Origin: Ypsolopha sequella
Taxonomy: Eukaryota > Arthropoda > Insecta > Lepidoptera > Ypsolophidae
Length of the DNA: 64,000 nucleotides
Direction: 5' to 3'
Assembly (NCBI GenBank): GCA_934047225.1
Contig: OW204011.1
Coordinates: 14,706,339-14,770,338, forward strand
Shown here: piece by piece, positions 5,282-33,162 of the stretch
Numbering within the stretch: the stretch's first letter is position 1
Layout of the letters: each line of letters opens with the position of its first letter
Translations under genes and position numbers: made by a program
The notes under the pieces: generated by a model
Databases searched by the model: none
What the model was told of the DNA's origin: nothing
What the model saw: only the letters and a program-made list of their open reading frames with translations

Positions 5282-5317
5282 ATGAAGTCTCTGTTAGTCG
5301 CTTTTCTCATCGTCGTG
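5282..5317 (+). CDS. SP1 exon 1 (signal peptide start)
   Basis: Twelve codons, MKSLLVAFLIVV, followed by donor GTAAGTTA. Phase 0. It matches SP2 exon 1 at 33 of 36 bases, and intron sequence beyond the donor is also shared. Confidence 0.78.
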
Positions 5318-8300
5318 GTAAGTTATTAAACATTATATTTTTGGATTTTTGTCACAATTATTATGTTTTGTTTTTAAAATGCTGCTACTGCCTGTTATCA
5401 TACATTTTTCAGGTTTGCTAATCTCTCTACTAGATATAAAAATGTTTTAAGGAACTGATATACCGGTTTCGCAACAAAAAGTATTATTTTTTATTATTAT
5501 TTTTTTATTATATTATGTCTTAATGGTATCAAAAAAAACCGACACAATTTTTTTCATTTGCAAGTGGATATAGTTGTTTGTCCACGCCTCGTATGGGATG
5601 GGGACAGGTCCTCTAAAGGCCGTTTTACATGATTCATATTATGATTCTGTTCTAATGCCGTCTCTTTTGCACGCGTGAAAAACCTCTGACTCCATCCTAC
5701 TTTCAAATCATTTTATGATTCACCCAAGTCGGCCTTTTTAGATCCCATACGAGGCGCGGACAAAGAACTATCTACCTGCAAATGAAAAAAATTGTGTCGG
5801 TTTTTGTTGATACCATTAAGACATAATATAGTAAAAAATAATAAAGAATTTGAACATCACTTCCGTGATCGACTTCACGAAATAATTTTGCAGATCAAGG
5901 CTCTTCTGAGCCAGTCTTCAATAATTTATATCTTCGCTAGCTTTTGCCCGCGACTTCGTCCACGTGGGTTTTCGGTTATAAATTCAAGTCAGGTTTTCCC
6001 ATAGAATTTTAATACCCCGTCGTCGGGTCAGGCAAAACGATTATTCTTCAAAAAGTCACAACCTCGTAGATTTAAAGTTTAAAGTCGATAAACAAGGAAT
6101 GTCATTTTCTTTACAAACTTTTACAACCCGTTTCATTCTTTTAGGGGATGATTTTTTAAATATTGCATCTTTGTATGATAATAATTAATACCTATATTAT
6201 AAGTATGTTTTATAATTTTCATGTATTATTAACTAATTAATATTACACAATATAACTTTAAATATGTACAATAAATAAAAGAAAATTCAAAACTTGAAAT
6301 ATATTTCGGCCCTTAGTGGGCCGTCATCAGTCAAGTCAAGCCACTAAGGGCCGAAATGTATTTCAAGTTTTAAATTTTCTTTTATTTATTGTATATATTT
6401 AAAGTTATATTGTGTAATTCTAAATAAAAAGCTAATAGAGGCATATTATATATTTATTAACTAATTAATATGTATTATATTATATCTATTATATATAATT
6501 ATTATCTGTATTATATCTATCATAATTTATTTCATTATTACTGGCCTCATAATTGATTGATTGTAAGTACATAAGAAGTTTTTCCATTATCTTTTAAAAA
6601 ATATAATTATATTTTGTAGCCTTGTAAATTGATGTTTTTCTTGTTTAATTTAAATTTAATTCTCAGATTAATTTCTAAATTTGTAAATGTTTATTTTTAT
6701 TTACTCTTATTAGTGTATAAGGTAGAAACACTTTAGTACACCAAAGCCCATTGTTAAAAATTTTTGCTAATCGCTCTTAAGACGCCGCGGTTCAAGCTTG
6801 GCTTAGTTTGGGGTTTGTAACTAATTTAATAACGCTCAAATGAACAAGCTCCATTTTTTTTACAAAGTAATTTTATTTAAAACATTATTAAGAGTGCGAG
6901 ACTCACCGCGTTTATTTTTTATATTTTCCCGAATTTTATAATTTATTTATTAATTAATTTGTTAACAACAAGCTTCAAATTTAATTTTTCCATACAAACG
7001 TTTTCACCTCATTCTTAGGGATTTATTTTCGTTACATACCTTTTTTGAAATTTTTCAAAGGTGTTTCGAAATCGGTGCAAGTAAACTTAGCTAAACTGTA
7101 TATTTTTACAAAAGCGGTTTCGCAGCTGGATTGTGAAAAATCCGCCTTATTCTAATGAATCGAAACAGAACACTTATATTCAAAATTTACTCAAATAGTT
7201 ATTCAACAAAACCTTATTACCTATGTATTGTGTATGTTGTCATCGCAAAGTTTCCAATGGTTTCTGTAAATTATAAATTTCAAAAATTTTTTTTTTTTTT
7301 TAGTTATGTAGGTTGTCCATAATACTTTTTTAAGCAGTGGTAGCTCAGGTATAGAACGCTGGCCTCTCAATCTTGAGATCCAGGCTCGATCCCCGGTCGG
7401 GCATAAACCAATGAGTTTTTCGGAATTTATGTGTATATTTGTTCTTACTTACCACTTGCTGAACGATGAAGGAAAACATAGTAACCATACCTGCATGCCA
7501 TAGAAAGCGTGTATTTGTGCCCGGAGTACGGCGATAGGGCCTACCACCCATCAAGTTGGGATGTCAAATCTAGGCATCAGGTTTCATACTACCCTGCCGA
7601 AATTTCCATAATTCCATAATTTCCAGTTTAAACTTATTCTCTGACCTCCTTTAGAAGTTTGTTGTAAAATCTTATACCATGTCCTACGAAAGAGGTGCAC
7701 ACCTTGGCGAGTCTGATTTTTGGAAAAGCCAGATATGCTTATTTCTGGTTTCTTTACAGTGTTGCTGTTCTGAGTTGGTGACTAAGCCTTGTGTGCTTGG
7801 GAAAGACTGACATTTTTTTTCTGACAAATCTAAGAACTTTGTAAATAAATACACAAGTAACAGTTAATATGTTATATCACCTATCACCTATAACAGTTCA
7901 GTAGCTTCGTATCAACATTGATGAATGAACCTTGTTGTTCCACAGGTGGTGTTCTGCTCCTACACTCAGCAAGCAATGGCGCAATTCGGTAAGTACAGTT
8001 GACTCGTGCAAAGTTACACCCATTTTAAATAGACACATTCACATTATGAACTCTTCTATTCAGGGTACTTGAAATTTTGACTTGACTTGTCTTGAATTTT
8101 GGTCAACGACGACAATATACGACGTATCGAAAAAAAATATAATTTTTTTCGTTTACCGGTCACCAAAAATCCGTCTACGTCCAGCAGCCTGTATTGTATT
8201 CTATTGCTATTGCAGTGATGCAGTGCTGCTGAAAGTCAAACATGTTATTTTCGTAGGAAGCCGAAGTCAGAATAGAACCGAATCTGTTCGGTTCTGGCTT

Positions 8301-11300
8301 CGGCTACCTACGAAAATGCAGCAACACTGCATACGAAAATGCAGTAGCACTGCATACGCGCTGCAATAGAGAATAGAATAGAATATAGTTTATTTGCGTA
8401 ATTAGGTACATTACGCAAATAAACTATATTAGAATACTATAGAATACGGTAATGGAGCCGCTGCTGGCTGTGTGGTTCGAACGAGGTCTAATCTCAAATA
8501 ACTTGTTTTCTGGAGATTTAGGTTTTAAGACGAAAAGTCAGATAGTTGCTAAAACGATACTAAACAAGGGCCAGCCAGCCAGGTTGCCAAATAAAAAAAA
8601 AAAAAACTATAAATAAAAATATTTGGGGTACTTATTTATTTATTTATTAGAAAAGGCACATCAACAATGTAAACACATAACATCTATAATACACATGAAA
8701 AGTTCTAAAACTAATGTTTACATCTATAACAGATATGCACAACATTCATAATTAACGTGATACATAAATTAAATTTAACACAAAACTAAATACATTAAAA
8801 AACAAAAAATTAAACTGGCATGCAAGAAAGAAAAATTTAATTGGGATATATTGTTAATAATTTAGACTTAAAAAGAATTAAAACTTATTTTCCTTTTCAC
8901 CGCAGTTAGATAGGTTTGTTAGGGTGTCAACAAACTATAATGGAATTCTTAAAGAAATTCACTCTTATTCTATCATGTCATTGAAACATGGAGAAATAAT
9001 TAAGTTTACATTATAACACGCGTGCATTCACAGGTAATTTTCATAACATCAAACATGAGTAATCTGATCTGACACTGCAAGACCCTCGAATAAAATTTAA
9101 TTGGGACAAGACCGATTGCATTACATTGCATTTATACAAACTTATGTTCTAACTATTCCGAATAAGTTTCGTTCGGAGACGCGGCTCAGACACTTTACCT
9201 GGGTATCAAATACGAGATCAAGAAATAATTTTGTCCGGAAATGCGGCTCGGCCTTCGTCAGTCGAATATCATATATCAATATCAATATCAATATCGACTG
9301 ACGACGATCCCAAGTGGGTCGAGATATATACAAGGTGACTTTTTGATCATCGTCCAAATTCATACTGGTGGCTTGGTAAGTGATCAGTATTTTGGATCAG
9401 TAACAATTTTTGTGAAATTCGTAAAATGAAATTTCGGCTTCCCATATAAATTCAGTTCCAGTCCCGAGTGAATCACTATGGGGAGTCAAAATTTCATTTC
9501 ACGAATTTCACCAAAATTTTTATTGATGCATGATACTAATCACTTACCAAGCCACCAGTATGAATTTGAACGATGATCAAAAAGTCACCTTGTATATATC
9601 GAAAGTTTTCTTTTTTATTCAATTTATACTACAATATTCATAAAAGTCTGTATATTTAATATAAATAAATCAACAGGTGGTCTTCCTAGTCCTTCAAGCC
9701 TTCCGGTACCGGGTAAGTTTTTCATTCCTGCCTCTCAAAGGAGACTTTATGTGCATAGTATTTGTTCCTACTTACAGGCCCACAAAGTTATCTGACCCGG
9801 TGACGGCGCGTCGCTAGAGTCGAACCCAGTGTTGCCGTCAATTGAAAGTTGGCGATTTTTAGGTTACAATCAGTTCGGTCCGGTTCGGTTCCTTAAAAAA
9901 CTAGATTGACGTTGATAAAAATATTATGTAGTGGAGACTTTTCAAGGAAAATATGTAAATACATATTAAATAAACCACCTGTAAGGAAATCTTTAAAGGA
10001 AGTGTTTTAAGGAAATGTTTATAGGAAGTTTGAAGTTTTTAAGCATGAATAAAAAATTTAACACAAAAAAATTACCAATTATATTTTAATATTATAATTG
10101 TGATCAAGTAAACAATTTAATGGTTTAATTCCAGATATTCCCGAACCCGAATCACCTGTTTCATCATCCTCAGAATCGCTACTTTCACTTTCACTGTCAT
10201 TGTTCAAAGTAATGATGAACGGTTCATCTAAATAACCATCTTTATCTATATATTCGTTTTCAATTTTTTTCACATGTCCACAATGCTTTTGCCATTCTTC
10301 TGCCGATATTGCATTAAATCCATTTGAGATTAATTGCGGCATTTCTGAATCGATTTTTCCAATATTGTGGTCGGCAACATTCACAGAGTGACATATTCAA
10401 GATGGCGACTTTATTTCCTGTTTTCGCCACCGGTTCAGATAAGTTTGTAACGCTGTACCTATGAACCCCATAATTTATTTTGTGCCGGTTGATGGGCATG
10501 CACCAATGAGTTTTCCGGCATTTAAAATAAAACGTCGTAAGGAAACTGCAAGCCCTAAAAAGTGTGTATTTGTTCCTGAAGTACGTCGATAGGGCTCACC
10601 AGAGCTGTCATATGGACCAAATAAAAAGTCCGTAAAAGACCGAAAACGTATAAAAAGTCCTAAATCATCAAATAGGACTTTTTCAACCGTGAGCGAGTCC
10701 GCGGACCACGGACCGATCGGACTTTTTCGGGCTTCGGGTTAGTCCGTTCGGTCCGTTGGTCCGTTGCTGGTCCGTTGTGTGTAACGAAATGATTATGGAT
10801 GGTTTTATGCAAGTATAGCATGACAAAATAATGTTATTCGAAGGATGTGATGACGAGTTGACGACTAAGAATCGAAATATATGTTTTGCAGGTATGTATT
10901 CATTCATATTTTCGTCATATTGTCCATACTTAATTTTGTTTTGGTTTTGACTATATATAAAGCTACTACAAAACGGTAACTCACTGACTGACTGACTGAC
11001 ATGGTTGTTTAGTTTGAAGGAGTCTTTTGACATGGTAGTAATGTATGAAAACAATGTCAGTTGTCTAATACTGAGTGGGGAAAAACCTTGACATTTGACA
11101 TTTGACTTGGTTTTTTGACATTTTAGTGAGACGTGTCGTTGTATGGGAGTTTTGAAAAATTTTTCGAGTGAGTAGGCGAGCCCGAAGGGCGAGCCTACGA
11201 ACGAGCACGAACGAGCGAGCGAGCGAAGTTCGTAGTGATGTACCTGGGTACTAGGGATGGGAAAGATTGACAGTCTTGACAGAACGAGCCCGCGAGCGCG

Positions 11301-14300
11301 AAGCGCGAGCGGGCGAAGTTCGCCGGGACAAGTACGCGAGCGCGAAGCGCGAGCGTGCGCAGTTCCTAGGGATGTCCTCGATCACTAGGGATGGGAAAAA
11401 TTGCCTTTTTTTTTTAAGGGATGTACCGAAAAAAAAAATTGTTTTGGCCATATCTTCGGAACGGAAGGTGGTACATCCCTAGGGGTCGGACCATAGGGTG
11501 CCAAAAAAGTATTTTTTATTTTTTTTTAATGTCAAAACTTTAACCGCCCGTATCTCCTAGACGGCTTGAGTTAGACCCATGTTGATGGGTGTCTAAGAAA
11601 AGGTCTCGCCGAGATCTAGCCCCCCACAGTGTCAAAACTTTAACGGCCCGTATCTCCCAAACGGCTGAAGCTAGACCCATGTTCATGGTACTCTAAGAAA
11701 AGGGTTCGACGAGCTCTAACTGAAAATGAAAAAAAAAAAAAAAGTCGAAAAAAAAATATATTTTTGCCAAAACTTTGATCGGCTATATCTCCCGAACCGT
11801 AAGTCCTAGCGAGTTGCGGTTTCGACTTTAGTGATCGGTTTGCCGAGGGCTTTCCGACCGCATAAAAAAATTTGACATTTGACAGGTTTTGACATTTTTT
11901 TGACAGGTCCAAAAAAGTGCTCCGATTCGCTTGAAACTCGGTATCAAGGGGCAAATGGGGTCGGTGATTACGAATTCGTTGTTAAATTTGACACTTTTTG
12001 ACAACCGACAAGGATTTTGAAACTTTTTTGAAAAACATTTGATCGGACATTTCTTCGGATCTAATGGCGAGGCCGAAGGCCGAGCCTTCAAGTGTCTTTC
12101 TAGCGAGGCCGAAAAACGAGCATGTGAGGACGGAGAACGCGCCAGCGAGGCCGATTCCGATCAAATAATTTTTTTTCAAAAAAGTGTCAAAATCCTTGTC
12201 GGTTGTCAAAAAGTGTCAAATTTAACAATGAATTCGTAATCACCGACCCTACTTGCCCCTTGATACCGAGTTTCAAGCGAATCGGAGCACTTTTTTGGAC
12301 CTGTCAAAAAAATGTCAAAACCTGTCAAATGTCAAATTTTTTATGCGGTCAGGAAGCCCTCGGCAAATCGATCACTAAAGTCGAAACCGCAACTCGCTAG
12401 GACTTACGGTTCGGGAGATATAGCTGATCAAAGTTTTGGCAAAAATATATATTTTTTTTCGACTTTTTTTTTTTTTTCATTTTCAGTTAGAGCTCGTCGA
12501 GCCCTTTTCTTAGAGTACCATGAACATGGGTCTAGCTTCAGCCGTTTGGGAGATACGGGCCGTTAAAGTTTTGACACTGGGAGGGGCTAGATCTCGGCGA
12601 GACCTTTTCTTAGACACCCATCAACATGGGTCTAACTCAAGCCGTCTAGGAGATACGGGCGGTTAAAGATTTGACATTAAAAAAAAAATTGGCACCCTAT
12701 GGTCCGACCCCTAGGGATCACCTTCCGTTCCGAAGATATGGCCAAAAACTTATTGTGCTGGACGGAAATTAAAAAAAAGTTGCTAGGGTATGCCATCCTC
12801 TTAATCGAAGTTTTCAGGTATTTCAATATTATTCAATAAAATACACGACATTTTTTCGACTATTTATCAAATTGTAGCACAGCATTTATTGCATAACTCT
12901 ATTGAAGTAATCTAACGGACTGTTTCGTACCAACTCGGACCGGACCGGCTTTTTACCGAAATAGGGCTAGTCCGTTCGGTCCGCTGGAGTTTAGGGCTCA
13001 CCATAAAAGTCCATCGGACCAGGTCCGAGTCCTATTTGAACGGACCAACTTAGGGCTTATATTTGGTCCATGTGACAGCTCTGGGGCTCACCACCCATCT
13101 CGTTGGCACGTAATAATCGTCTGTTACACACGGGTGTACCGAGTGTGGACTGTGACTTGTATTTCACAGTTCACACTCGGAACACTTCTGATACCCCATC
13201 GGGGATTCATGTCGTGACGATATAATTTATTTAGTATCAAAGTTAGCCACAATTCATATAAAGTTTTTTTTTGTTTCGGAACCTTTAATTATTTACCCGT
13301 TCAACATGCAACTTTTCCGTGTTATGAAGTATTTAAAAGGAACTAAACTTTATTTCCAAAGACAAATTGACACGTAGGTATCTGAATACTAAATGGCACT
13401 ATGAGCTATACCATAAACTAAGTATTACTACGTATAGACCGACAACTCCCATACATCAAGGCGTAGCAAATTTTTTACGCGCCCTTACGTCACTAGGTGT
13501 CGCCAAGCGTTGCAAATATCCACAACAAGTAAACTCTCATAGTTACTAAGTAAACATGTGGCTGTAATAGCTTTGCTTAGAAAAGTTAGATGGCGCTAAG
13601 TCGAAGTGGGAATTATTTTTATGTTACGTGACATCGCTGTGCCACTAGCGTCACCAATGGGTCTTTTTTAGCATCGTGTTCGTTAGAGGATTTAGCAACG
13701 CCATCTAGATTTCGTTAGAATTTTACACTTTTTCTGTGGCTACAAACTGATGTATGGGAACTGCTAGTCTATACGTAGTAATACTTAGTCTATGGCTATA
13801 ATTTTAATATAAATAAATCTACACCAGATACCTCTGCTGTGTCGAATGCTGCTTCCGGTGCTGCTGCTTCGGGTAAGTTCTTCAGTCGATCCTGCCTGTG
13901 TATGTAGACAGAGTTTTTAGTTATGTTCTTATGTCTGCTGAGAGGTAAGTTGTACTCCTGTCTGTGTATGTAGACAGAGTTTTTAGTTATGTTCTTATGT
14001 CTGCTGAGAGGTAAGTTGTACTCCTGCCTGTGTATGTAGACAGAGTTTTTAGTTATGTTCTTATGTCTGCTGAGAGGTAAGTTGTACTCCTGCCTGTGTA
14101 TGTAGACAGAGTTTTTAGTTATGTTCTTATGTCTGCTGAGAGGTAAGTTGTACTCCTGCCTGTGTATGTACACAGAGTATTTAGTTATGTTCTTATGTCT
14201 GCTGAGAGGTAAGTTGTACTCCTGCCTGTGTATGTACACAGAGTATTTAGTTATGTTCTTCTGTCTGCTGAGAGGTAAGTTGTACTCCTGCCTTTGTATG

Positions 14301-14989: not shown

Positions 14990-15048
14990 CCATCGCTCCG
15001 CTACAAATACAATATTATATAAATGTAAACTGTTTTTGACGATGCTGC

Positions 15049-15054
15049 AATAAA
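15049..15054 (+). terminator. SP1 polyadenylation signal
   Basis: AATAAA lies 60 bp after the stop codon, in GCTGCAATAAAGTTTATG. Cleavage is expected 10-30 bp downstream. Confidence 0.7.
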
Positions 15055-15289
15055 GTTTATGTATTGATTATTCTGACTTTTATTTCTTCATCACTAACAA
15101 TATGAACTATTCTTTAACGTCGTCGTACGTAATTCATTAGTGGAGGGGGGGGGGGGGGGCTGTAAAATATCTAGACTTTTTTTGTGGCGTCTGGCAACCA
15201 GTGACGACTGCAGGCTCAAAGAACAGGTGGTGCACTTTATAGTTTATTTAACGATAGGTATTTTAAATTGATTCTTCGTAAGTTCGCAA

Positions 15290-15610
15290 GGTAGGTAGGT
15301 AGGTTCATCCATCCATCCATCAGCCTAGTTCGTCCACTGCTGGACATAAGCCTTTCCAGAACTTTGCCACTCCCGGCGGTCATCCTGGAAGAATTGCTCA
15401 TACTCACACACGCTGGGCAAACGGGTTGGTAAACGCGGTGCCGGAACCCTCGCACCAGTCTGTTCCATATAAGGCCCGGCTATTAGGGATGAATATACTG
15501 CCATCCATCGGTTCAAGGCATGATGGTGTTGGGGAAACCACCAACTAAATCCTTTGGCTCCGTCGTGGTTGTGGAAACCGCCAACCCAATCCACTTCCGG
15601 CTCCGTAGGG
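15290..15610 (+). repeat. Interspersed repeat GTCCACTGCTGGACAT, copy 1
   Basis: CATCAGCCTAGTTCGTCCAC through CCCGGCTATTAGGGATG. A second copy at 23385-23620 is about 90% alike by eye. This GTCCACTGCTGGACATAAG motif is widespread in lepidopteran genomes; here it is likely a non-LTR element fragment. Confidence 0.6.
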
Positions 15611-16579: not shown

Positions 16580-16766
16580 TAACACTAGTTAAAGTCTTCT
16601 TGTACGAGTTCCACTATTTTATTTCTTTAATTATTGCGACTAGTTTCGTCTATTTGAACATTAACCTATTCCAATCAGCCCGACGATGTCAAATAGACGA
16701 AACTAGTCGCAATAATTAAAGAAATAAAATAGTGGAACTCGTACAAGAAGACTTTAACTAGTGTTA
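16580..16766. mobile_element. Near-perfect 187-bp palindrome
   Basis: Arms of about 79 bp, from TAACACTAGTTAAAGTCTTC to its complement, with no visible mismatch over most of their length. The loop is CATTAACCTATTCCAATCAG plus a few bases. A perfect foldback of this size implies a very recent origin. Confidence 0.85.
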
Positions 16767-21310: not shown

Positions 21311-21354
21311 TTTTCAGTACATGAACCATTGTACGATGATTCATGTACTGAAAA
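21311..21354. repeat. Perfect 15-bp-stem hairpin
   Basis: TTTTCAGTACATGAA and its exact complement around a 14-base loop, close to the end of the LINE fragment. Confidence 0.78.
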
Positions 21355-21365
21355 ATAAAAATATG

Positions 21366-22135
21366 CAAATATAGGTTTATGTTACTAACAATAGGTTAAG
21401 CAGTTTTATTTTTCTTGCTAACACTATTGTAGATACTGTGTGTGTGTTATATGGCTTTATGGTGGCCGAAATAAATTAATTATTAAGGAAATGAGGATCC
21501 AATTTATGAATAAAACTTCTGTGCTAATAAATATACGAAAACTACCGAATGAGATAATGAAAATTCCAAAAACTACTGTCAGCTATTTTTATCGTAGATC
21601 TCCAAATAAAATACTTTGTTTTTTGTATGTCATGAATTCTGTTAAAACTAGTGACCTCGCCTCGCTCCGTTCCGCTTCGCTCGGCTCCTTATTTTATCTT
21701 ACATGTAAACCTAACACGCTCCTCCTCGCTACGCTCGTCGTCGCACCTATTTTTGACTTTTGGTTCATAAGTTCTTTCGGAAGTTCAGTAATTTATTCGG
21801 AGGTTCATTATTTAAACCAGGAAGTCGCAAGAAATTTTAGTTTGCTATGTTTAATTTATTTTGTCGGTAGATGTTACACAGTTAAATTAGTATATTTTTC
21901 GACAACTAATTTTGCCGCTGCTCAAACAGTATAACAGTGTGCAGCAGTTCGCTTGGATTTAATTTGTTTTTCGGAGGCTTTATTATCATCCATAATTAAT
22001 TACGACATCTCCAAGGTGTGGACCCGGGATTGTTTGTGATGAAGAAGTAAAACCCACAACAATCAAAACATGAACTATATTGTACCATTGTCATGTTAAT
22101 ATTTATATAATATTGTATTTGTAGCGGAGAGACGG
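21366..22135. other. Region between the LINE fragment and SP2 3' end
   Basis: Holds the probable SP2 3' UTR (about 22040-22135 on the minus strand, conserved with the SP1 UTR). An open frame at 21440-21934 on the plus strand has no recognisable domain and is probably chance. No AATAAA is obvious for SP2. Confidence 0.45.
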
Positions 22136-22140
22136 TTAAT
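22136..22140 (-). CDS. SP2 exon 7 (two bases plus stop)
   Basis: Acceptor ATTTGTTACAG, then AT completing an Asp codon, then TAA. The UTR CCGTCTCTCCGCTACAAATA matches SP1. Confidence 0.7.
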
Positions 22141-25100
22141 CTGTAACAAATAATATTATACGTGATACCATATTGTAAAAATAAACAAGTCAAGTGCGAG
22201 TTGCACATCGTCGACGGTTCAATACAATAAGAACAATATTGGTATGTTAACACTAGTTGTTTGTACACACATATGATAAAGGAATCAAGAATTACAACCA
22301 TTGCCGCTATGTCCCGCCGATCAATTTAGAGAACAACAAATACAATCTGCATCGATGTCAGGATGACATCGATGCAGATGGTATTGGTGGTCGGACCGTT
22401 CGACCACCAATACCTTCTGCATCGATGTCATCCCGAGCCCTGCGAGCCGCAGCCCGCAGTGTGAGGCGTAACGTCATCGCGTAAACGTCTTCACTCGCCC
22501 AGATGAAGGCGGTCTAAACTGCTGAAACTGGTCGGCTTTCCCGATCATAACACGTATTGAGGTGAGCCGTTTTAATATAAATTATTAATATTTTCTTATA
22601 TCGTATCTCTCTTTAACTCTATACACAGCAGGAGTACAATTTACCTGTCAGCAGATAGAAGAAAATAACTAAAAACTCTGTCTGCATACATACACAAGCA
22701 AGATGGACTTAAGAACTTACCCGAATAGCCCGAAGTAGATGAACTCACGCTGTATTCATCAGCCATATCTGTTAATTTATTTATATTAAATTTATTAAGC
22801 TCATAGTGCCACCTGTATTCAGATACGTATCAATTTGTCTTTGGAAATAAAGTTTAGTTCCTTTTGAACACAAAATAATGCTGTTTCATTAAATCGAAAC
22901 TCGAAAAAGTTGCATTTTGAACGGGTAATAAAAAGGGTGCCGAAGAGAAAAGGAGAATGCTCACGAAGTATGGAGAAAAAACCCAGGCCCGGCGCAAATG
23001 AAATGTATCTCAGATTGTTCATAGAAATGGGTGATAAAATAATATGATAAAATAAAATAATGGTGATATCTCAAAATTACCCCTGCCATCAAACAAATAG
23101 CAATTTCTTACATTTAGCCATCGATATCGATGATGAAAAATATGTGGTATTTCATTACATATTTATACTCAAAATATGAGATATATTTCATTGGCGGTTT
23201 TTTTGAGCATTCACCTTTCCTGTGACTTAATAATAATAACATAAAACACAGATAAATGCAGATTACAATTAAGAGAAAAACAGGGCAAAGGCGGACTTAT
23301 TATATCGGATATCGGATATACGTTTTAATGCAATTTAATAAAATATTTTTTTTTCTGTTGGTTTTATATAATAAATAATATTATGGGGATCCATCCATCA
23401 GCTTGTTCGTCCACTGCTGGACATAAGCCTTTCCAGGACTTTGCCACTCCCGGCGGTCATCCTGGAAGAATTGCCCATACTCACACAAGCTGGGCAGGCG
23501 GGTTGGTGAGCGCGGTGCCGGAACCCTCGCACCAGTGACGCTGCTGCCCGTCACCAGTCTGTTCCATATAAGGCCCGGCTATTAAGGATGGATATACCGC
23601 CATCCATCGGTCCCAGGCCTGGTGGGCCACCTGGTTTTTTGCCTGTGAGCTGTCCTCTTACTCTCCCCCGAAATACTTCGAGGGGGTCTCCATGTAAGAT
23701 GGTGGTACCTCCACAGTCGAGCCCGGCATCGGGTGGCGTGCACAGAACTTTTTGCTAGAAAAGCAAACAATTGGTAAAGATAAAAAAAATAATTAAATAT
23801 TTAAATATCACTTTGAAAAAAAAAAATTGTATGACGCCAGGGTAGACAATGTCTACCCTAGAGTGAAAACTTCCCATACAAACTTTTTTTTCAAAGTGAT
23901 ATTTAAATTTTTTGATATTTTTTTTATTGTTATTCTTGACCAATTGCTTGCTTTCCCAGCAAAAAGTTCTGTGCACGCCACTCTACCACCTGTTCCGTAA
24001 CCGTATTGAGTGGTGGTACGGAACCCTTTAGGCCCGAATCCGATTAGCACGTATCTCTTTAATTCTATATATACACAGACAGTAGTACAACTTACCTCTC
24101 AGGAAATAGAAGAATAGTAGTTTATGCTACAAGGGCGCAAAGGAATAAATTACGAGGACGATTTAAAACACGAGCGTAGCGAGTGTTTTAAACGTAACCG
24201 AGTAATTTATTGCTCTTACGCCCGTGTATCATACTACGTTTTTCAATGCATAGTGTGAGGAAATAAAACAATTATAATTTTGTGAACTTTACATTGTAAT
24301 TGGCTCAAAAGGACTGTATCCAAAGCCGTTAAACAGTGGAAAAAAAAGTATGACATTTATGGTACACAGGAAAGGCTGCAGGTTAGCCAACCATTGTAAA
24401 TAAATTAAAAAATAATAATAATAATAAAGCCCTAGGGCAAAATAATCGACTTTCTATTCGGTTTTGATGCATAAAAAGTGGGCCTTTACGAGCACATGCA
24501 TTGAAAAATAATTAAAAACTCTGTCTGCATACACAAGCAGGATGGACTGAAGAACTTACCCGAATAGTTATAAGTCGGAGTAGTAGTAAACACGCTAGAT
24601 TCTTCTGTTGATTTATAAATATTAAATTTATTAAGGCGATATGCGAAAATTTTCTGTGTATTTCATAAAAAAAAAAAAATAAAAAAAAAAAATCATTTAT
24701 TTCAGAACTGGGTCCCAAAAAAACACAACATATTACACAGAAAAGAAAAATACAAAAATGTCACAAACAGTATGTCAATAAAATAAAATAAAATGTCAAT
24801 AAAATTAAAATTAAAATTAAAACTCATAGAAAATCAGGATAAAACAATTTCGATGATTAAACATTATTTAACGTGTAGTGTCCTCCAGTGCTGGCTGATC
24901 TGATAGGACACCCGCACATACACAGAAAAATGTAAGTTTCTGGTATATGCATCTTGACTATACAAGGTGACTTTTTGATCATCGTCCAAATTTATACTGG
25001 AGGCTTGGTAAGTGATCGGCATCATGATTCGATAACAATTTTTGTAAAATTCGTCTAACGAAATTTCGACTTCCCATAGTAATTCACTCCCAGTCCTGAG

Positions 25101-28100
25101 TGAATCACTATGGGGCTATGGGGAGTCGAAATTTCATCTTGTGAATTTTACAAAAATCGTTATTGGTTTATGATGCTGTTCACTTACCAAGGCTCAAGAA
25201 TTTGGACGATGTTTGCAAATTCACCTTGTATAATCTAGGGTTTTGAAATTGGAAAACATGTTTGGATAAATTTTCCTCGATAGAAATAATTGTTGAAATA
25301 CAGGGCAAAGGCGGACTTATTTCTGAAAGAAATTTCTTCCAGTCGACCATAAATGACAGAGATGAAGAAAAATTATACATTGGCTTATTTAAATTTAAAT
25401 TGAGTACATAAAGAGCGATATGAATATGTATGTAACTGTTTTAAATATAATAGTCTACATACACTATTGTGTATATCATTTCATTTCATTTCAGATAACC
25501 ACATAGTGAATTGTGGCTAACTTAACTGAAATATATTTATTTATGTAACGTTGGTATATCGGATACACTTATAACAGGTCTGTTTTAATGCAATATGATT
25601 AAATAATCTATGTCTGTAGGTTTAAAATAATAAATAATAATATTGGGAAATACAAAAGGAAATAATAAGATTAGGTTTACTTAAATTTAATAAGAAAATG
25701 CACTTGAATAAAACAAAAATATATGAATAAGGAATTAATAATATTATAAATATTTGCAATGCATATAATAAATATATGCTAACTCCTTCCATTCGATTAG
25801 TCTTGCTAAGAAGAAGGGCAAGAAACCTAGCAATATCATGTCTTTTTTTTCATAATATTAGTTACAAACAAATAAATATATAAAAAGTAATCCTATACTT
25901 TAGTTTAACAAAGAGATAAAAAAATACAAAATAGGAGAAAATTGCGTCATGGCGCTACCATTTTAACAACTTGTTTTTGTCGCCTCAATGTTGCTCTGGC
26001 ATCTATATTGTTGTTATTAACTATAATATTTTTAGGGTATCGTACACGTATTGAGTGGTGGTACGGAATCCTTTGTGAACAAGTCCGATTTGCACTTGCC
26101 CAAATTATATTTTCTTATATCGTATCTCTCTTTAAATCTATACACAGCAGTAGTACAACTTACCTCTCAGCAGACATAAGAAAATAACTAAAAAGTATGT
26201 CTACATGTCTACATACACAGGCAGGATTGACTGAAGAACTTACCCGAATAGATGGCAGTAGTAGTACTCACGCTGTATTCTGTTGATTTATTTATATTAA
26301 ATTTATTAAGCTCATAGTGTCATCTGTATTCAGATACGTATTAATTTGTTTTTGGAAAAAAGTTTAGTTCATTTTGAACACAAGATAACAATGTTTCATC
26401 AACCCGAAACTCGAAACTCGAAAAAGTTGCATTTTTAACGGGTAATAAAAAGTGTTGCGGACAACAAGCAAGCGGCTGAATAAACCAAAAGGAAGCTGGC
26501 CAGCGGACCAAGGGAGGGAGCGACAAGATAGAGCGAGAACACATCATGTTGACTCGCGTCCAGGCTGGCTTACCTCAGGCGTCGTTCTTCTCGCTTCACC
26601 TCCCCGCGCTCTGTAGACATCGCGCCTATCGTGCACTATGTAACAGGGGCGGGGTAAAATAAAAACCCCTTAGACTAAAAAACAATAATTGTGTGACATA
26701 AGTATGCAGTTTTATTCGTAATGACTTTACGAACAATAAATTTTGAATAGTGGCTTTTTATTATAATCGGTGCAAATAATAAGCCACCGAGAATGACAAT
26801 ACTGAGATTTCGTTACGGTTTTAAAAGCTTTGTTATTCATTGATTTTTATAAAATTGCAAGTTTAAATTTTCGATAATGTGAAGCAAACTTAAAATAAAT
26901 AATTTTCTGGAAATAATTTTCGAAAAGATAAGTGTAAAAGTGTAAAGTTATATTTTTGTTAAATTTTGCGTCACTTGACCGTATGAGTTTTCGGGTATAA
27001 AACGCCGTCAATTTTATGATATCGATATGAACAGCACTGGCTGAAAAGTGGCAACATTTTGCTTTTCGAGTTGTCAAAGGAGTTCCTCGAATTAAAAACT
27101 CTACTTTAGTAGGTATTTATAGCAGTACCTATTTATTCAGTATTTGAGAACAGCTTTACATTTAAATTATTTGGCGGAGGTTTTATTACTTCCCTTTTTA
27201 CCGTGATAACGCCCCCCCCCCTTATTTCCGAAACAAGACGACCGAAAAATATGAAAAAATCATTGTAATAAGGTGACAAAAGTATTTATTTATATACAGG
27301 TGCTACCTACCATTTTAGAGGCTTGTTTTTGTCACCTAAATGATGTTGTTATTAAACATAATATTTTTAGGGTTCCGTAACCGTATTTTGTGGTGGTACG
27401 GATTCCTTTGTACGTGACTCTGACTAGAACTTGCCCAAATTATTTATATTTTCTTATATCGTATCTCTCTTCAATTCTATAAACAGGCAGGAGTACAATT
27501 TACCTTTCAGTAGACAGAAAAAAAAACTCTCTTTCTCCTTTCACAGGCAGGAATGAAGAACTTACCTGGTGTCGAAGGGCTTGCAGAATCACGGCGAAAG
27601 AAGGGAAATCCACGGAAACCATCTGTTGATTTATTTATATTAAAAGTATAGCTCACAGTGCCATCTGTATTCAGATACGTGTAAATTTCATGTCTTTTTA
27701 AATAAAGTGTAGTATGTATGTATGTAAATACTTTATTGCACAAAATAAATTTACAATGCACAAAGGCGAACTTAATGCTAATTAGCATTCTCTGCCAGTT
27801 AACCTTTGGTGATGTAGAAAGTTTTGAGGGTAGTGCCAGATAAGTTGATAACTATAATCAATTCAATCAAGAAATATAATTTTTTATAGCACAAGTGCGG
27901 AAATGCCGACTTTACGCACGCGCAGCGTGCGTAAAGCGGTCATTTTACGCACGGTGTGCTATAAACATATTTTCATAGATACTATATATATTAAATTTAA
28001 TTAGAATTAAATAAATATTGTACTGGGTGTTTTTGTTAAAGGTATAGAACTTTGAAATGGAATAAAACAAAGATGATTTTTTTTATTGATATGAAATTGA

Positions 28101-31100
28101 TTTTATTCGAAAGACAATCTTCTGGCATTATAATTTAAATATGACTTCTGGCATATGTTCGCCACGGCTGGCTCGGACGTAGTCTAATCTGGAGGTCCAA
28201 TTTTCGATGACATTTTCCAACATTTGTGGCCGTATATCGGCAATAACTCGCCCAATGTTGTCCTCCAAGTGGTCAATCGTTTCGGGCTTATCGGCGTAGA
28301 CTTGCGACTTCACATATCCTCATAGAAAATAGTCAAGTGGCGTTAAATCGCAAGATCTTGGAGGCCAATTCACGGGTCCGAAACGTGAAACTATGCGGTT
28401 ACCAAACGTTTCCTTCAATACATGTGTGACATGTTGCGCCGTCTTGTTGAAACCACAACTCTTGCACAATTGATTTATTAAAGAAAACGTTTGGTAACCG
28501 CATAGTTTCACGTTTCGGACCCGTGAATTGGCCTCCAAGATCGTGCGATTTAACGCCACTTGACTATTTTCTGTGGGGATATGTGAAGTCGCAAGTCTAC
28601 GCCGATAAGCCCGAAACGATTGACCACTTGGAGGACAACATTGGGCGAGTTATTGCCGATATACGGCCACAAATGTTGGAAAAAGTCATCGAAAATTGGA
28701 CCTCCAGATTAGACTACGTCCGAGCTAGCCGTGGCGGACATATGCCAGAAGTCATATTTTAATTATAATGCCAGAAGATTGTCTTTCGAATAAAATAAAT
28801 TTCATATCAATAAAAAAAATCATCTTTGATTTATTCCATTTCAAAGTTCTATACCTCTAAAAAAAACACCCTTTACAATAATATACATATATTATAGATA
28901 ACAATACATAGGTAATTACGAGAAGGACAATGACTCAGGGGGATATGTGAAAATTACAAGTTTTATGACTGATTCTGTAGCTGTAGATAGTGTTGATAGT
29001 TTTGAAGGTAGAGATAAAGGGGGACTGACGGATATTAAGAGGAGGACTATTCCACAGGCGGATTGCTGACACTGTAAAAGAATTTGTATACATATTGGTG
29101 CTGTGTTCGGGAAATCGGAGGAGCATAGCTCTGCTTGGTCGCTGAAGCCGGCCAAAGGATTCAATAGGGGCAAACCGGTCTCGAAGATAAAAAATGGGCT
29201 ATTGAGAGCATTATAGAGAAGTGAGACGATGTGTGAGTTCCTTCGGTAGCGGATATTAAGCCAGTTTAGCTGGAGACGAAATTGAGAGGCATGATCGTAT
29301 TTGCGCAATCCGAAGATGTATATATCTGATACAGAGATTTAGGAGACGATCTAACTTGTTTAAAAGTTCTTGTGTTAGATCAAGATAACTCACACCAGCG
29401 TTATCTATAATAGAAAGCAAAAGAGAATTGACTAATGTAACCTTGGCAGAGTATGGAATAAATTTTTGCATGCGTTTTAGTGAGTGCATTGAGGCAAATA
29501 TCTTCTTGCTGATTTGTGCAAACTGCAAGTCCCATGACATATTATTAGAAATGTGAAGCCCCAAATTTTTGACAGATTTGCAGTACGTAAGTGTACGTAC
29601 GTACATTTTGAACACTAGATAACTCTGTTTCATTAACTCGAAACTCAATAAAGTTGCATTATTAACGGGTAATAATAAAGATGCCGAAAAAAAAACTTCC
29701 TGTGAATTGTGGCTAACTGAAAACAACAAGGCACCAGGCGAAGATGGCATCACAACCGAATTTCCGAAAGCTGGTAGGTTATCCTATACTCAGACAGCTA
29801 CAGGTCTTCTTTAACGCCATCATTCGCACTGGAACTATGCCAAAGGTGTGGAGCAGGAGACTGCTAATTTTGTTCTTTAAAAAATGGGACAAACCCACAA
29901 GCTGTTAACAAGAGTTATCACGAATCGTCTCGCCCATCGATTCGACGACTTCAACCTCCAGAGGACGCTGGGTTTCGTAAAGGCTGCAGCACCGTAGACT
30001 ACATTCACACGCTAAGGAAGATTATACAAAAATCCCAAGAGTATAATCAGCCCTTATGTCTACCGTTTGTGGACTACGAGAAAGCCTTCAACTCCATCGA
30101 AACTTGGTCTATTCTGCAGTCGATGCAGTGATGCCAAGTTGACTGGCGTTACGTGGAGATGCTGAGATGTCTGTATGACTCGATACACCTTCAGCGTGGC
30201 GTGAGACAGGTTGATTTTCCAAAAACTGTTTACCGCCGCGCCGTGCTAGAGGACGTCTTTAAAACACTAGTAGAATGGACGAGGCATAAACGTGAACGTA
30301 GAACATACATATCACATCTTCGCTTTGCCGATGACATCATCGTGATAATGGCTGAATCGCTACAAGAACTGGAGGGAATGCTGTGCAGCCTAAGCGATTC
30401 TTCCAGACGAGTGGACCTGTGGATGAATTTGGACAAGACTAAGTTCATGTTCAACTGTCATGTCATCAAAAGGCCAATAACCATCAACAATGTCAGCATC
30501 AAAGTTGTTCAAAAATATGTTTATCAAATATATGTTGTTCAAAAATGAGTTCATAATGTGAATGTGTAGCTATATAAAATATGTGTAACTTTGCACGAGT
30601 CAACTGTACTTACCCCTCTGCGCCATTACTTGACGATTGTAGGAGCAGAACACTACCTGTGGAATACATGCAAAATTCATCAATTTTAAGGCACAGCTTA
30701 GTGGTGGCGTCTGTCGAGGATGATAGGCCGCATCATTTCTAGGGACTGCGTTCGATGCCCCAATGTGACCTGGTACTCGCAGGATGTCATCTTCCATCAC
30801 TGGATCTAGTTTGTATAGTCGGCTCGCTCTAGGGCGGGCTAACTTAAGTCTCTGCGGTTCGGCATGAAAACTGTCTTCTTGTACGCGCCTCATTATATGT
30901 TTTCGTTTAGCGCGCTCAATATGTGTATTTTCCAGGCGTACTGCTCGGTGCCGACAGATGTCGATGAAAGCCAGCACGCGCGCGGCCGTTTGCATCAGCG
31001 TTTCATATTTCAAGAATTGTGTGGGTTCAGGCAGCCAGTCGTCTTGACACTTATTCTGCTGCTCATGTGCAGAGCTTCCTCGTTGTCTTCAGCGGGAGCT

Positions 31101-33162
31101 CGTTCAATGAGCCAGTTTTTCTCCGGCTCATGTAAGAATCTGGGTCCCTGGAACCACCGATCGCCTGTATTGATTGGCGCATGGTAGTTCCGTGTAGCAT
31201 CGTCAGCCACGTTCTGTTTTGTAGGCAGCCATCGCCACTCAGTCTTGTGTGTGAGTTCTGCGATCTCTCCCAGTTGGTGTGGGACGAAAGGAATGTACCG
31301 CCATGCGTCGTTACGCACCCAATAGACCACGGTTGAGGAGTCGGTCCAGTAGGTAGTACTCGTGATGTCGACGCGGTGTTCTCGCTTGATGACACCAGTG
31401 AGTCTCCCACCAATAACCGTCGTCTGTAGTTCCAGGCGTGGAATGCTCTGTGCGTGTCTTGGTGCCACCTTAGCTTTGGCGGCGACCAAGGCAATCTTCA
31501 TGCTGCCGTCGTAGTATATGGACCTCCAGTAGACCACCGTCACGTATGCTTGTACGCTAGCATCGCATAGCACGTGTATTTCTACCTGCTTGTGGCTCTC
31601 TAGTGCGTTACTTCGGTGCAGACGTAGGAGGGTGACGTCACCGGGATTGGCTAGTCCCATTATATTTGGAGACGCCACAGGCTCCGGAATATCTTCACCC
31701 AGATTGTATACTGGCTGAGCAGACCCAGTGGGTCATATATAGACATCACCGCGCTGATATGTTCATCGGATTCATGCGCAGCCAGTTATCAACCTTGTGA
31801 AAGTTGGTCATGCGACCTGCATAGCCAGATGCTTCTGAAACAACTCGGCCTCCAGTTCCAGCTTCTTTAGTAACGCTGTCTTTTCGGCTGCGGCCAGTTC
31901 TGCCACTCGCAACCTCGTGGTCATGTTCGCAGTAGATCGATGTGACCGGTGCAAGTGTGGTGACCTTGGTCGTTGTCGTGTGACTGGCACGTGCTCCGTG
32001 ATGGTACCATGAGCGGTGTTTGCAGCTGAAAGTGATACTGGTTTGTCTCGTTCAAGCCTTCTGATACGTTCCTGCTCGATCTGGCGTTCCTCTTCCAGGC
32101 GCCTCTGCTCCTCTTTCCAGCGCAGATTTCCAGTTCTGCAGCATCATCCTGGCTCCAAGTGACCACCATCATGATTGGACGATAGGTAGCAACTGAAGAA
32201 ACGTCGGTTTCGAAGAGAAGGTGGTTCCAACGGTATGGTTCAGGTTTCAAATCTGGCTTGTTGTGGACAAACGATTGTTGTGGACTGTTTAGTTCTTTAT
32301 TAATGTTCATGCTGCTCGACTATGAAACCGTGAACCTGAATCCGTCCAAGTCTGTCGTACCTTAAACTTCTTTAAATTTAAACTTAAAGCTCACTACTTT
32401 ACTGAGCTTAACTCTTAACTGATTCATTATTTATTCTTGTGCATTCCATAGAAAACTATCCGTGGTTTATTATATATGTGAAAATTCATATATTTATTTA
32501 TGTATGTCTATTTTTTTTATACTACTATAATTATTGTGGACTGTATTTACTGTTGACGTTTACTTTTCTTTAATAATGTTCCTTATAAGGATCGCTGAAG
32601 TAAACTGTACATTTTGGGATTCTTCCTCTTATACCATTAATTTTGCACGCGGCACTAACAATTTTTGTACACGACCCTAATTTTTATTAGCTCTTAAATT
32701 CTAAACAGGCCCGGCACTCCCAAAAAGATTCGGTCGATCGTTTATCGTTAGACCATATGTCCATCTCTGACGCACGCATAAAAAGTATGATAGAGATATA
32801 CGACCGAACGATATTCGATCGAATTTTGTCACCTCGGAGTAGGCCCTCAGGTGATCAGGTCCCCATTCCATACGAAGCGCGAACAAAGATGTATCCACTT
32901 CAAAATAATAAAAATTGTGTCGGTTTTGTTTTTGACACCATTAAGATATAATATAATTTACTTTTTGGTTTCGAAACCGGTATACAAGTTCCTTATAACA
33001 TTTTCATTTCTAGAGGGAGAGAGATTTGCAAATCCCAATAATGTATGATAGCAGGCAGTAGCAGCATTTAAAAAAAAACAAAATAGTTCTGACAAAAATC
33101 CAACAATATAATGTTTAATAACTTACCACGGCGATGAGAAAAGCGACTAACGGAGTCTTCAT
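22136..33162 (-). CDS. SP2: short secreted peptide, seven micro-exons
   Basis: Coding exons (minus strand) are 33127-33162, 30614-30656, 27566-27622, 26244-26279, 24560-24604, 22721-22768 and 22136-22140, joined in phase 0 then phase 1, giving 89 residues. Exons 1-2 encode the signal peptide (MKTPLVAFLIAV then VVFCSYNRQVMA), with cleavage after VMA leaving QR at the mature start. Four cassettes follow: a basic aromatic one (GFRGFPFFRR...) and three Ser/Thr/Tyr-rich ones. The last codon is split, GAT, then TAA. It is the inverted paralog of SP1: promoter, exons 1, 2 and 7 and intron edges match, but the mature peptide is almost unrelated. No cysteines occur in the mature part. Any subset of cassettes would stay in frame. 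Function is unknown. Confidence 0.72.
22345..22414. repeat. Two adjoining perfect hairpins
   Basis: ATCTGCATCGATGTCA and its exact complement form a 16-bp stem with a 3-base loop (22345-22379). Starting at the next base, GGTATTGGTGGTCG and its exact complement form a 14-bp stem (22380-22414). A third direct copy of CTGCATCGATGTCATCC follows. They lie in the last SP2 intron. Confidence 0.85.
22721..22768 (-). CDS. SP2 exon 6 (cassette)
   Basis: 48-base phase-1/phase-1 exon encoding DMADEYSVSSSTSGYS, with Asp split at the junction. Acceptor AATATAAATAAATTAACAG, donor GGTAAGTTCTTAAG. A motif CTGACAG|GTAAATTGT lies downstream of the donor. Confidence 0.68.
23385..23620 (+). repeat. Interspersed repeat GTCCACTGCTGGACAT, copy 2
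   Basis: Second copy of the repeat at 15290, with CAGGACTTTGCCACTCCCGG and CCCGGCTATTAAGGATGG shared. It lies in SP2 intron 5. Confidence 0.6.
23733..23981. mobile_element. 249-bp foldback element
   Basis: Outer arms GTGGCGTGCACAGAACTTTT and complement; inner arms ATATCACTTTGAAAAAAAAA and complement; centre GGGTAGACAATGTCTACCC. Nearly symmetrical along its length. It lies in SP2 intron 5. Confidence 0.85.
24302..24510 (+). repeat. SINE tail family, copy 1
   Basis: CCGTTAAACAGTGGAAAAAA, GGCTGCAGGTTAGCCAACCA, an AATA-rich tract, AAAGCCCTAGGGCAAAATAA and GTGGGCCTTTACGAGCAC. The same tail is at 36412-36545, where it follows a tRNA-like head, and at 49080-49285. Confidence 0.7.
24560..24604 (-). 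CDS. SP2 exon 5 (cassette)
   Basis: 45-base phase-1/phase-1 exon encoding EESSVFTTTPTYNYS (first Glu split at the junction). The acceptor region has AATATTTATAAATCAACAG; donor GGTAAGTTCTTCAG. A CCTGAGAG|GTAAGTTGT motif lies downstream. Confidence 0.68.
24963..25228. mobile_element. CAAGGTGAC foldback MITE, copy 3
   Basis: Ends CAAGGTGACTTTTTGATCAT and AATTCACCTTG with TA on both sides. It is inserted into a further repeat whose flanks (CATCTTGACTA and ATCTAGGGTTTTGAAA) match 62905-62945. It lies in SP2 intron 4. Confidence 0.83.
25229..25940. other. SP2 intron 4 remainder
   Basis: AT-rich intronic sequence. No additional cassette with the shared acceptor and donor is visible. Confidence 0.4.
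26244..26279 (-). CDS. SP2 exon 4 (cassette)
   Basis: 36-base phase-1/phase-1 exon encoding EYSVSTTTAIYS (Glu split). Acceptor AATATAAATAAATCAACAG, donor GGTAAGTTCTTCAG. An exact CTGAGAG|GTAAGTTGT motif lies downstream near 26160. Similar to exon 6 (both EYSVS). Confidence 0.7.
26340..26460 (-). repeat. Cassette-flank block, SP2
   Basis: Upstream flank of exon 4 in gene orientation, including CTCGAAAAAGTTGCATTTTT and AACGGGTAATAAAAAG. It matches 22830-22935, 29610-29690 and the SP1 block at 13265-13405. Confidence 0.68.
27566..27622 (-). CDS. SP2 exon 3 (cassette)
   Basis: 57-base phase-1/phase-1 exon encoding DGFRGFPFFRRDSASPSTP (Asp split). The N-terminal part is basic and aromatic. Acceptor AATATAAATAAATCAACAG; donor CCAG|GTAAGTTCTTC. 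A CTGAAAG|GTAAATTGT motif lies downstream. Confidence 0.68.
27714..29605 (-). pseudogene. CR1-like LINE, 5'-truncated, in SP2 intron 2
   Basis: The 3' end lies at the left: minus-strand TTGTGCAATAAAGTATTTAC followed by TACATACATAC repeats, typical of lepidopteran CR1-type tails. RT C-terminal coding lies at about 28910-29590 (minus) with VKNLGLHISNNMSWD and YSAKVTLVNSLLLS; it is frameshifted. It interrupts the exon-3 cassette flank: sequence left of 27714 and right of 29605 joins into one block matching 22850-22900. A mariner-type foldback is nested at 28023-28873. Confidence 0.72.
28023..28873. mobile_element. Mariner-type foldback made of two transposase ends
   Basis: TA-flanked termini GGGTGTTTTTGTTAAAGG (left) and, read inward, GGGTGTTTTTTTTAGAGG (right). 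Both arms (about 28023-28412 and 28488-28873) carry the same Tc1/mariner-type transposase C-terminal coding in opposite directions: RSCDLTPLDYFLWGY, then QVYADKPETIDHLEDN. In Tc1/mariner proteins the third catalytic acid lies in the PxDYFL-type region. The left arm has a stop in that region. The N-terminal half is absent from both arms, so the element is non-autonomous. Confidence 0.88.
29718..30545 (+). pseudogene. RTE-type LINE fragment
   Basis: Reverse-transcriptase pieces in shifting frames: NNKAPGEDGI near 29720, VDYEKAFNSIETWS near 30075, then 30153-30548 with HLRFADDIIVIMAESLQELE and the DLWMNLDKTKFM segment. These are typical of RTE-clade LINEs. Frameshifts and stops show it is dead. 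It lies in SP2 intron 2, just upstream (genomically) of exon 2. Confidence 0.82.
30614..30656 (-). CDS. SP2 exon 2 (end of signal peptide)
   Basis: 43 bases after acceptor ATTCCACAG encode VVFCSYNRQVMAQR plus one base. Donor GTAAGTACAGTTGACTCGTG continues into intron sequence identical to SP1 for over 20 bases. Confidence 0.77.
30690..32330 (-). pseudogene. Degraded BEL/Pao retrotransposon
   Basis: The minus strand encodes RNase H-region sequence (HVLCDASVQAYVTVVYW, YWTDSSTVVYWV) at 31010-31678. Next come the pre-integrase linker (TAARVLAFIDICRH, ASRLYKLDPVMED) at 30600-31013 and gag-like pieces with TWSQDDAAELE and SQDD-type sequence near 32000-32310. It is clearly related to the intact element at 36841-43416 but internally deleted: protease, most of RT and the integrase are missing. 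It lies in SP2 intron 1. Confidence 0.85.
32331..32759. other. SP2 intron 1, possible BEL remnant end
   Basis: AT-rich sequence between the BEL remnant and the conserved intron block. It may include a decayed LTR, but I cannot align it to the LTRs of the intact element. Confidence 0.3.
32820..32960. mobile_element. Half of a foldback MITE shared with SP1 intron 1
   Basis: CCATACGAAGCGCGAACAAA and TTGTGTCGGTTTTG...CACCATTAAGATATAA match one arm of the MITE at 5480-5845, at the corresponding intron position. Confidence 0.65.
33127..33162 (-). CDS. SP2 exon 1 (signal peptide start)
   Basis: Twelve codons MKTPLVAFLIAV, then donor GTAAGTTATTAAACATTATA, shared with SP1. Confidence 0.78.

Follow-up and report, generated by a model that had tools for sequence, protein, structure and literature searches.

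The window analysed here (64,000 nucleotides of the lepidopteran Ypsolopha sequella; C28:14706339-14770338, C28 being contig OW204011.1) holds two candidate genes for short secreted peptides, SP1 (+ strand) and SP2 (- strand). They are inverted, convergent paralogues of one layout: two signal-peptide exons, then small internal "cassette" exons (two in SP1, four in SP2), then an exon with the stop codon, which makes five exons in SP1 and seven in SP2. When both genes were rebuilt from the sequence, every exon was found at the position given by the initial annotation. SP1 comprises exon 1 at 5282..5317 (signal peptide MKSLLVAFLIVV; homologous to exon 1 elsewhere in the cluster described below), exon 2 at 7946..7988 (the remainder of the signal peptide; recovered by the exon-2 genome search), cassettes c1 at 9677..9712 (GGLPSPSSLPVP) and c2 at 13828..13872 (DTSAVSNAASGAAAS), and a terminal exon at 14985..15075 (TAA 14987-14989, AATAAA 15049-15054; 3' limit provisional) that resembles the terminal exons of its relatives. 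SP2 comprises, on the minus strand, exon 1 at 33127..33162 (signal peptide MKTPLVAFLIAV), exon 2 at 30614..30656 (remainder of the signal peptide; same genome search), cassettes c1 at 27566..27622 (DGFRGFPFFRRDSASPSTP), c2 at 26244..26279 (EYSVSTTTAIYS), c3 at 24560..24604 (EESSVFTTTPTYNYS) and c4 at 22721..22768 (DMADEYSVSSSTSGYS), and a terminal exon at 22040..22140 (TAA 22138-22136; 3' limit provisional). The introns between cassettes measure 1.3-4.1 kb.

The rebuilt SP1 product has 54 amino acids (MKSLLVAFLIVV-VVFCSYTQQAMAQF-GGLPSPSSLPVP-DTSAVSNAASGAAAS-G) and that of SP2 has 89 (MKTPLVAFLIAV-VVFCSYNRQVMAQR- followed by the four cassette peptides). Judged by eye, both N-termini are hydrophobic and end in an AxA-type site, making them candidate signal peptides with apparent cleavage between AMA and Q in SP1 and between VMA and Q in SP2; the predicted mature parts are 30 and 65 residues long. 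With exons 1 and 2 thus taken up by the two parts of the signal peptide, the cassettes hold almost all of the mature peptide. SP1 and SP2 are identical at 148/167 positions of the promoter, 33/36 of exon 1, 34/43 of exon 2 and 60/71 of the last exon and 3' part. Read from the sequence, the shared promoter carries a TATA box, TATATAA, at 5218..5224 (+) in SP1 and 33226..33232 (-) in SP2, and a forkhead-like site, TATTTAC, at 5183..5189 (+) and 33261..33267 (-) respectively.

All six cassettes are 36-57 nucleotides (nt) long and in phase 1/1, as first described. Each is a multiple of three with no stop codon and has GTAAGTT right after it, and translation of all subsets gave an open frame in every case. 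Because the cassettes are copies of one another, this frame neutrality is expected and is not evidence for exon skipping. Their lengths are all multiples of three, whereas indels in the flanks mostly are not. The acceptor said to be common to most of them is well beyond chance in the window: AATATAAATAAATCAACAG occurs six times in the window at up to three mismatches (0.09 expected from shuffles), and the exact form occurs at three places in the whole 867-Mb genome, all inside the window, but a 22-base version at three mismatches is common genome-wide (522 places, versus 279 for a reversed control). A mobile element as the carrier of the acceptor is disfavoured, as the exact acceptor and the cassette unit were matched only in the window. 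On the other hand, two further claims did not hold as worded. The cassette peptides had been described as completely different; alignment scores against shuffles relate SP2 c2, c3 and c4 to one another (z 6.8, 7.6 and 4.4) and, weakly, SP1 c1 to SP2 c1 (z 3.1) and SP1 c2 to SP2 c2-c4 (z 2.1-3.1). Nor are the splice flanks specially conserved: the likeness extends over the whole duplicated unit, the flanks of SP1 c2 and SP2 c1-c4 being 75-87% alike per flank (ten pairs; ~165-435 aligned bases per pair in an alignment that omits intronic insertions and covers only ~36 bases upstream of c3), while those of SP1 c1 are short and diverged (56-87% alike). Ordinary duplication of the unit fits this flank-wide similarity, and special conservation was rejected. 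Thus the flanks behave as ordinary duplicated intron, and it is the exons that need explaining.

Exon and flank differences were counted for the 15 pairs of window cassettes on codon alignments that favour similarity. In seven pairs between SP1 c2 or SP2 c1 and other cassette types, the exons exceeded the flanks at p 1.7e-3 to 3.4e-9. For SP1 c2 the exon and flank differences were 26/45 and 33/200 against SP2 c1, 20/36 and 22/200 against SP2 c2 (p 1e-8), 23/45 and 25/133 against SP2 c3, and 22/45 and 22/200 against SP2 c4; for SP2 c1 they were 18/36 and 30/200 against c2, 24/45 and 36/131 against c3, and 28/48 and 30/200 against c4 (p 3.4e-9).

SP1 and SP2 belong to a larger gene cluster. In the genome, the SP1 promoter with exon 1 matched 14 places (search counts here are lower bounds, and a missing match is no proof of absence), every one of them within 13.92-14.88 Mb of C28, with no match elsewhere; the corresponding query from a relative, E, recovered the same 14 places together with two partial copies and one promoter fragment. 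Exon 2 matched 12 places, all on C28, and the cluster spans 13.9-14.9 Mb of that contig. The SP-type cassette unit, queried with SP2 c2, gave 14 matches, all within the window. Reading 200 kb, 30 kb and several small pieces of C28 yielded nine relatives, each with exon 1, exon 2 and one cassette found (splice-consistent reading), so that eleven genes are readable from start to cassette. Two weaker exon-1 places at 14.035 and 14.050 Mb fall within the 200 kb; the cassettes read belong to exon-1 places other than these two, the two partial copies (14.104 and 14.246 Mb) and the places at 14.082 (D), 14.134 and 14.226 Mb. Across the family the cassette exons measure 31-57 bp and the genes encode roughly 40-90 residues.

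In the relatives the signal ends in VVFCS..QLVMA or a close variant, and a short, variable, often acidic tail precedes the cassette (SPD, SPDEFD, SPDDDDDDYG, SPDEWEDQEYE, SPKNIA, SPKDDA, SPGP, CHLKKPM or RPD). The cassette peptides are NSEKDPYRWPPLSLG (A), YCTQNPDACYPPY (B), FCESFPAECD (C), FCEVFPEEC (E), YCDPEEEDCS (F), LCGGWPPLC (G1), LSGGWRPPFW (G2), LCKAYPEAC (G3) and DCDENPDQC (H). Seven of the nine contain C-x6-C, predicting a peptide of 14-20 residues with one ring; six of these seven (B, C, E, G1, G3 and H) have C-x3-P-x2-C, with proline at ring position 5, and in F the ring proline is at position 3. Two cysteines at fixed spacing, with the residues between them changing, support the reading frame. 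In A (C28:13913919-13913962) and G2 (about 14874632-14874668) both ring cysteines are lost, the first to serine and the second to tryptophan. Eight relatives have a stop inside the cassette, so that the terminal exon there would be 3' untranslated region (UTR); in A that stop is missing, and the frame continues through the terminal exon (...PPLSLGNKPSPPQ). Terminal exons like those of SP1 and SP2 were found in A-E (by profile), G1 and G2.

The sharpest contrast between exon and intron lies between A and B, a recently duplicated pair. Five collinear blocks that exclude a minisatellite give 4,510 aligned bases, of which 155 differ (3.4%, gaps not counted), while the cassette differs at 16 of 44 bases, all of them gap-free substitutions. 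When a 44-base window is slid along the alignment (4,290 windows), 16 differences is the highest count and is reached three times, at the cassette exon itself and at offsets of one and two bases from it; no window clear of the cassette exceeds six. The local flanks differ at 2/95 bases upstream and 10/57 downstream (exon excess p 1.5e-5), and over the first nine codons the replacement differences per site (pN) are 10/22.7 and the silent ones (pS) 0/4.3. F and H also show an exon excess (9/31 versus 13/170 in the flanks, p 0.002). Among all 36 pairs of relatives the excess has p < 0.05 in 20.

Minisatellites adjoin several cassettes. In SP1 a 66-bp repeat (ten copies, 13890..14557, +), whose consensus unit contains GTAAGTT, follows directly after the c2 donor. 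In A, B, E, G1 and G2 a 76-bp repeat of 9-54 copies lies in the intron after the cassette (arrays at C28:13906844-13908458, 13968381-13972482, 14089692-14090374, 14864555-14866722 and 14874703-14876543) and begins within ~60 bases of the cassette donor, except in A, where it is ~5 kb away. Among the relatives read far enough beyond the cassette (all but F and H), C and G3 are the two for which the repeat scan gave no array of this kind.

The common layout, the clustering, the exon-restricted divergence of some pairs and the kept cysteine spacing stand as observed. Judging from these, we consider it probable that the genes form a lepidopteran secreted-peptide family under diversifying selection, of which SP1 and SP2 would be an atypical, multi-cassette branch. 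As the sequence shows, a gene of this family consists of the shared TATA promoter, two signal exons, one or more phase-1 cassettes carrying nearly all of the mature peptide, and a terminal exon that supplies the stop in SP1 and SP2 and would serve as 3' UTR in eight of the nine relatives. Genes, and in SP1 and SP2 also cassettes, have multiplied by duplication together with their introns, and several cassettes have diverged much faster than the adjoining introns, presumably driven by recurrent diversifying selection on the mature peptide. The typical product would be a secreted peptide of 14-20 residues with a single disulfide (C-x6-C) closing its ring. The branch of SP1 and SP2 may have lost both this ring and the stop within the cassette, so that translation ran into what had been the 3' UTR exon; duplication of cassettes in frame would then have built longer, cysteine-free peptides rich in Ser, Thr, Ala and Pro; the stop loss and read-through of relative A are the very step proposed here.

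Several observations weigh against diversifying selection: i) the 15 window pairs share sequences, so that their p values are non-independent, and they are uncorrected; ii) the three pairs among SP2 c2, c3 and c4 show no significant exon excess (exon 7/36 and flanks 22/133 for c2/c3, 7/36 and 19/200 for c2/c4, 11/39 and 22/133 for c3/c4; p 0.08-0.42); iii) the excess is weak in the five SP1 c1 pairs (p 0.02-0.33), as the flanks of SP1 c1 are themselves divergent; iv) neither C/E (4/31 versus 8/158, p 0.11) nor G1/G2 (3/34 versus 14/164, p 0.59) has a significant excess, although all three exon substitutions of G1/G2 count as replacements; v) 16 of the 36 pairs of relatives do not reach p < 0.05, and this set of p values too is uncorrected and non-independent; vi) in the F/H cassette the silent changes are also many (pS 2.5/3.7, pN 10.5/23.3), which fits a mutational or conversion process; vii) the signal exons, which by contrast with the cassettes had been called conserved, are identical at 33/36 positions of exon 1 between SP1 and SP2, but all three differences are replacements, and over exons 1 and 2 (pN 0.16, pS 0.14; identity of adjacent non-coding sequence 0.77-0.95) the signal diverges at the intron rate; viii) in five relatives (ten pairs) the signal exons have pN 0.02-0.16 and pS 0.05-0.16, so that the signal evolves slowly in absolute terms, yet measured against silent sites it is under no strong constraint; ix) protein homologue searches with SP1, SP2 and relative E returned nothing at an expectation value of 1 or better. 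Thus the proposal that exons vary while introns are kept is supported by the seven window pairs, A/B and F/H, but not by the pairs within SP2 c2-c4, those of SP1 c1, C/E and G1/G2.

Part of this pattern could come from relaxed constraint with repeat slippage, the SP1 and SP2 cassettes being disordered low-complexity filler shaped by trinucleotide slippage and in-frame indels. ACT and GCT runs and length differences in multiples of three among SP2 c2-c4 and SP1 c2 agree with this, as does exon divergence near the flank level among SP2 c2, c3 and c4; moreover, the only Pfam likeness of SP2 is a sub-threshold one to a glue-protein model (New_glue, PF21827, Drosophila; 17.9 bits versus a cut-off of 31, E 0.0025), SP1 matching no family. 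Relaxation alone, however, should not surpass the intron rate, and slippage accounts neither for 16 gap-free substitutions in 44 bases at a 3.4% background in A/B nor for a cysteine spacing kept in seven of nine relatives, which leaves it an unlikely account. We hold it just as doubtful that SP1 and SP2 use their cassettes combinatorially, with alternative inclusion yielding many peptides per gene as in schistosome micro-exon genes. All subsets are in frame, and the pyrimidine-poor cassette acceptors (8-11/22, versus 12-13/22 at the exon-2 and terminal acceptors) could be weak; against this, frame neutrality follows from duplication, and a single cassette was found in each of the nine relatives, in eight with a stop inside it, which does not suggest that combinatorial use is family-wide.

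A mutational process aimed at the exon, whether conversion by a diverged non-allelic donor or error-prone recombination associated with the minisatellites, with selection merely filtering its products, appears improbable. It would suit the abruptness with which the A/B divergence starts and stops at the splice sites, the minisatellites in the post-cassette introns of SP1 c2 and five relatives, and the high pS of F/H; selection predicts the splice-site boundaries equally, however, the first nine codons of the A/B cassettes have no silent differences, the array of A lies far from its cassette and none was listed in C or G3, and the A cassette differs from each of the other eight by 0.23-0.42 in gapped alignment and is close to none of them. 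Least of all do we credit decayed duplicates whose splice sites survive only by recency: an exon-2-like copy at C28:14913859-14913952 lacks the usual donor, looks degenerate and is probably a decayed gene (it was set aside), and the genome search found no exon-2 match adjacent to the exon-1 places at 14.082, 14.134 and 14.226 Mb, but in eleven genes the start, the signal, the splice sites and the phase are all preserved together, along with a cassette that is either stop-free or properly ended, despite flank divergence, and seven keep an invariant cysteine spacing.

Our best reading, judged from sequence and layout, is that the cluster belongs with the fast-evolving secreted precursor families; we assign it to no named family, and seroins and conotoxins were judged by description. 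Conotoxin-type precursor superfamilies have a shared signal exon, a fast-evolving mature region, fixed cysteines and duplicated genes. The cluster peptides differ from them in having one ring and another gene layout and in not being known as toxic (compared by description, not sequence), and the conotoxin-like trait of a mature exon outpacing its intron is seen in A/B, F/H, the seven window pairs and 20 of 36 pairs of relatives, but not in C/E, G1/G2 or SP2 c2-c4. According to extracts of the papers cited in this comparison, schistosome micro-exon genes (MEGs) carry ~80% of the coding sequence in symmetric exons of 6-36 bp (PMC5825161), or have exons of 3-81 bp (PMC10526429), with 10-20 exons and splice variants (PMC5825161, PMC10526429). 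SP1 and SP2 resemble them in a candidate signal peptide, short symmetric exons between long introns, predicted secretion and fast evolution (PMC5825161, PMC10526429), and their cassettes (36-57 bp) and introns (1.3-4.1 kb) fall in the wider range (PMC10526429); only 69% of the SP2 coding sequence (186/270 nt) and 49% of that of SP1 (81/165) lies in 36-57-bp exons, the exons number seven and five, and the comparison is one of layout. Aphid bicycle genes have small same-phase internal exons, signal peptides and divergent proteins, as SP1 and SP2 would with their candidate signal peptides, but nearly all of their internal exons are in phase 2, they average ~17 exons (minimum 5) and they encode CYC motifs (PMC9168663), whereas all six cassettes are in phase 1 and the exons number 5 and 7. 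Seroins are likewise lepidopteran, small, secreted and modular; splice variants are reported for them, and one of their modules is variable and contains Pro. They are set apart, by description only, by B modules that are charged and by a mature length of up to 250 residues, versus 30 (SP1), 65 (SP2) and 14-20 (seven relatives) here (PMC6405961). Caterpillar venom peptides (PMC11187147) were compared by description alone. A literature search (top-ranked titles) brought up no description that we recognised as such a family; the "microexon" of an Ostrinia paper was a reference title about Drosophila. Scans of viral contigs for the acceptor-cassette-donor pattern and for a 19-mer of exon 1 found 0 loci each.

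The ring geometry offers a further lead. Allatostatin C has one disulfide (Cys7-Cys14) and a C-terminal PISCF (PMC3510462), which makes its ring C-x3-P-x2-C, the geometry of six of the nine relatives, with only three positions in common. However, allatostatin C is a neuropeptide, PISCF is found in 0/9 relatives, the other ring residues vary, and the mature parts of SP1 and SP2 are cysteine-free, so we treat the likeness as a lead only. It would be far-fetched, to our mind, to suppose a moth-lineage superfamily of one-ring C-x3-P-x2-C peptides from glands, which might target receptors of the somatostatin/allatostatin-C type in enemies or hosts, with the peptide-coding micro-exon alone diversified by a targeted, minisatellite-adjacent process and with SP1 and SP2 as a branch turned to combinatorial multi-cassette peptides.

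The promoters may hint at the site of use. All 12 promoters examined have a TATWTAA some 64-78 bases ahead of the ATG, and in 11 of them TATTTAC precedes this TATA box. SGF1 is a forkhead protein, and TATTTAC is, we presume, similar to a forkhead site. As a 7-base AT-rich motif in promoters sharing ancestry, it is weak evidence, and the forkhead reading is a guess offered as a lead. In Bombyx, an extract of PMC8584736 describes SGF1 as a silk-gland regulator. Expression in an exocrine gland of silk or labial type under forkhead control would be our guess, and we would likewise guess that the peptides take part in an interaction whose other side changes fast (a predator, a microbe, a host plant or a mate).

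Automatic annotation can easily overlook genes this small (~40-90 residues, with 31-57-bp cassettes that often lie kilobases from one another). In A and B, 44 coding bases that are about ten times more different than their surroundings provide a clean natural test of diversifying selection versus targeted mutation, and the cluster supplies a defined set of peptides for synthesis. Should their source prove to be a silk, labial, defensive or reproductive gland, these peptides would be candidates for a moth arms-race arsenal, and loss of the in-cassette stop would offer a stepwise route from single-cassette to modular peptides.

In the genome as a whole, eight gloverin-family matches lay above the cut-off, versus none in any of 14 control genomes; gloverins are lepidopteran. 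The window also contains repeats and mobile elements. Nested inverted repeats at 11519-12687 (arms of 354 and 176 bases, 96-97% complementary) lie in the SP1 c1-c2 intron, and an inverted repeat at 28016-28880 (408-base arms, 96% complementary, 49 bases apart), which looks like a folded-back transposon copy, lies in the SP2 intron before c1. A Pao peptidase domain fragment occupies 31010-31732, within SP2 intron 1. Further along, a single stop-free frame of 1,872 codons at 37352-42970 (-) contains Pao/BEL retrotransposon domains, and a reverse-transcriptase frame of 385 codons (RVT_1) lies at 55523-56680 (+).

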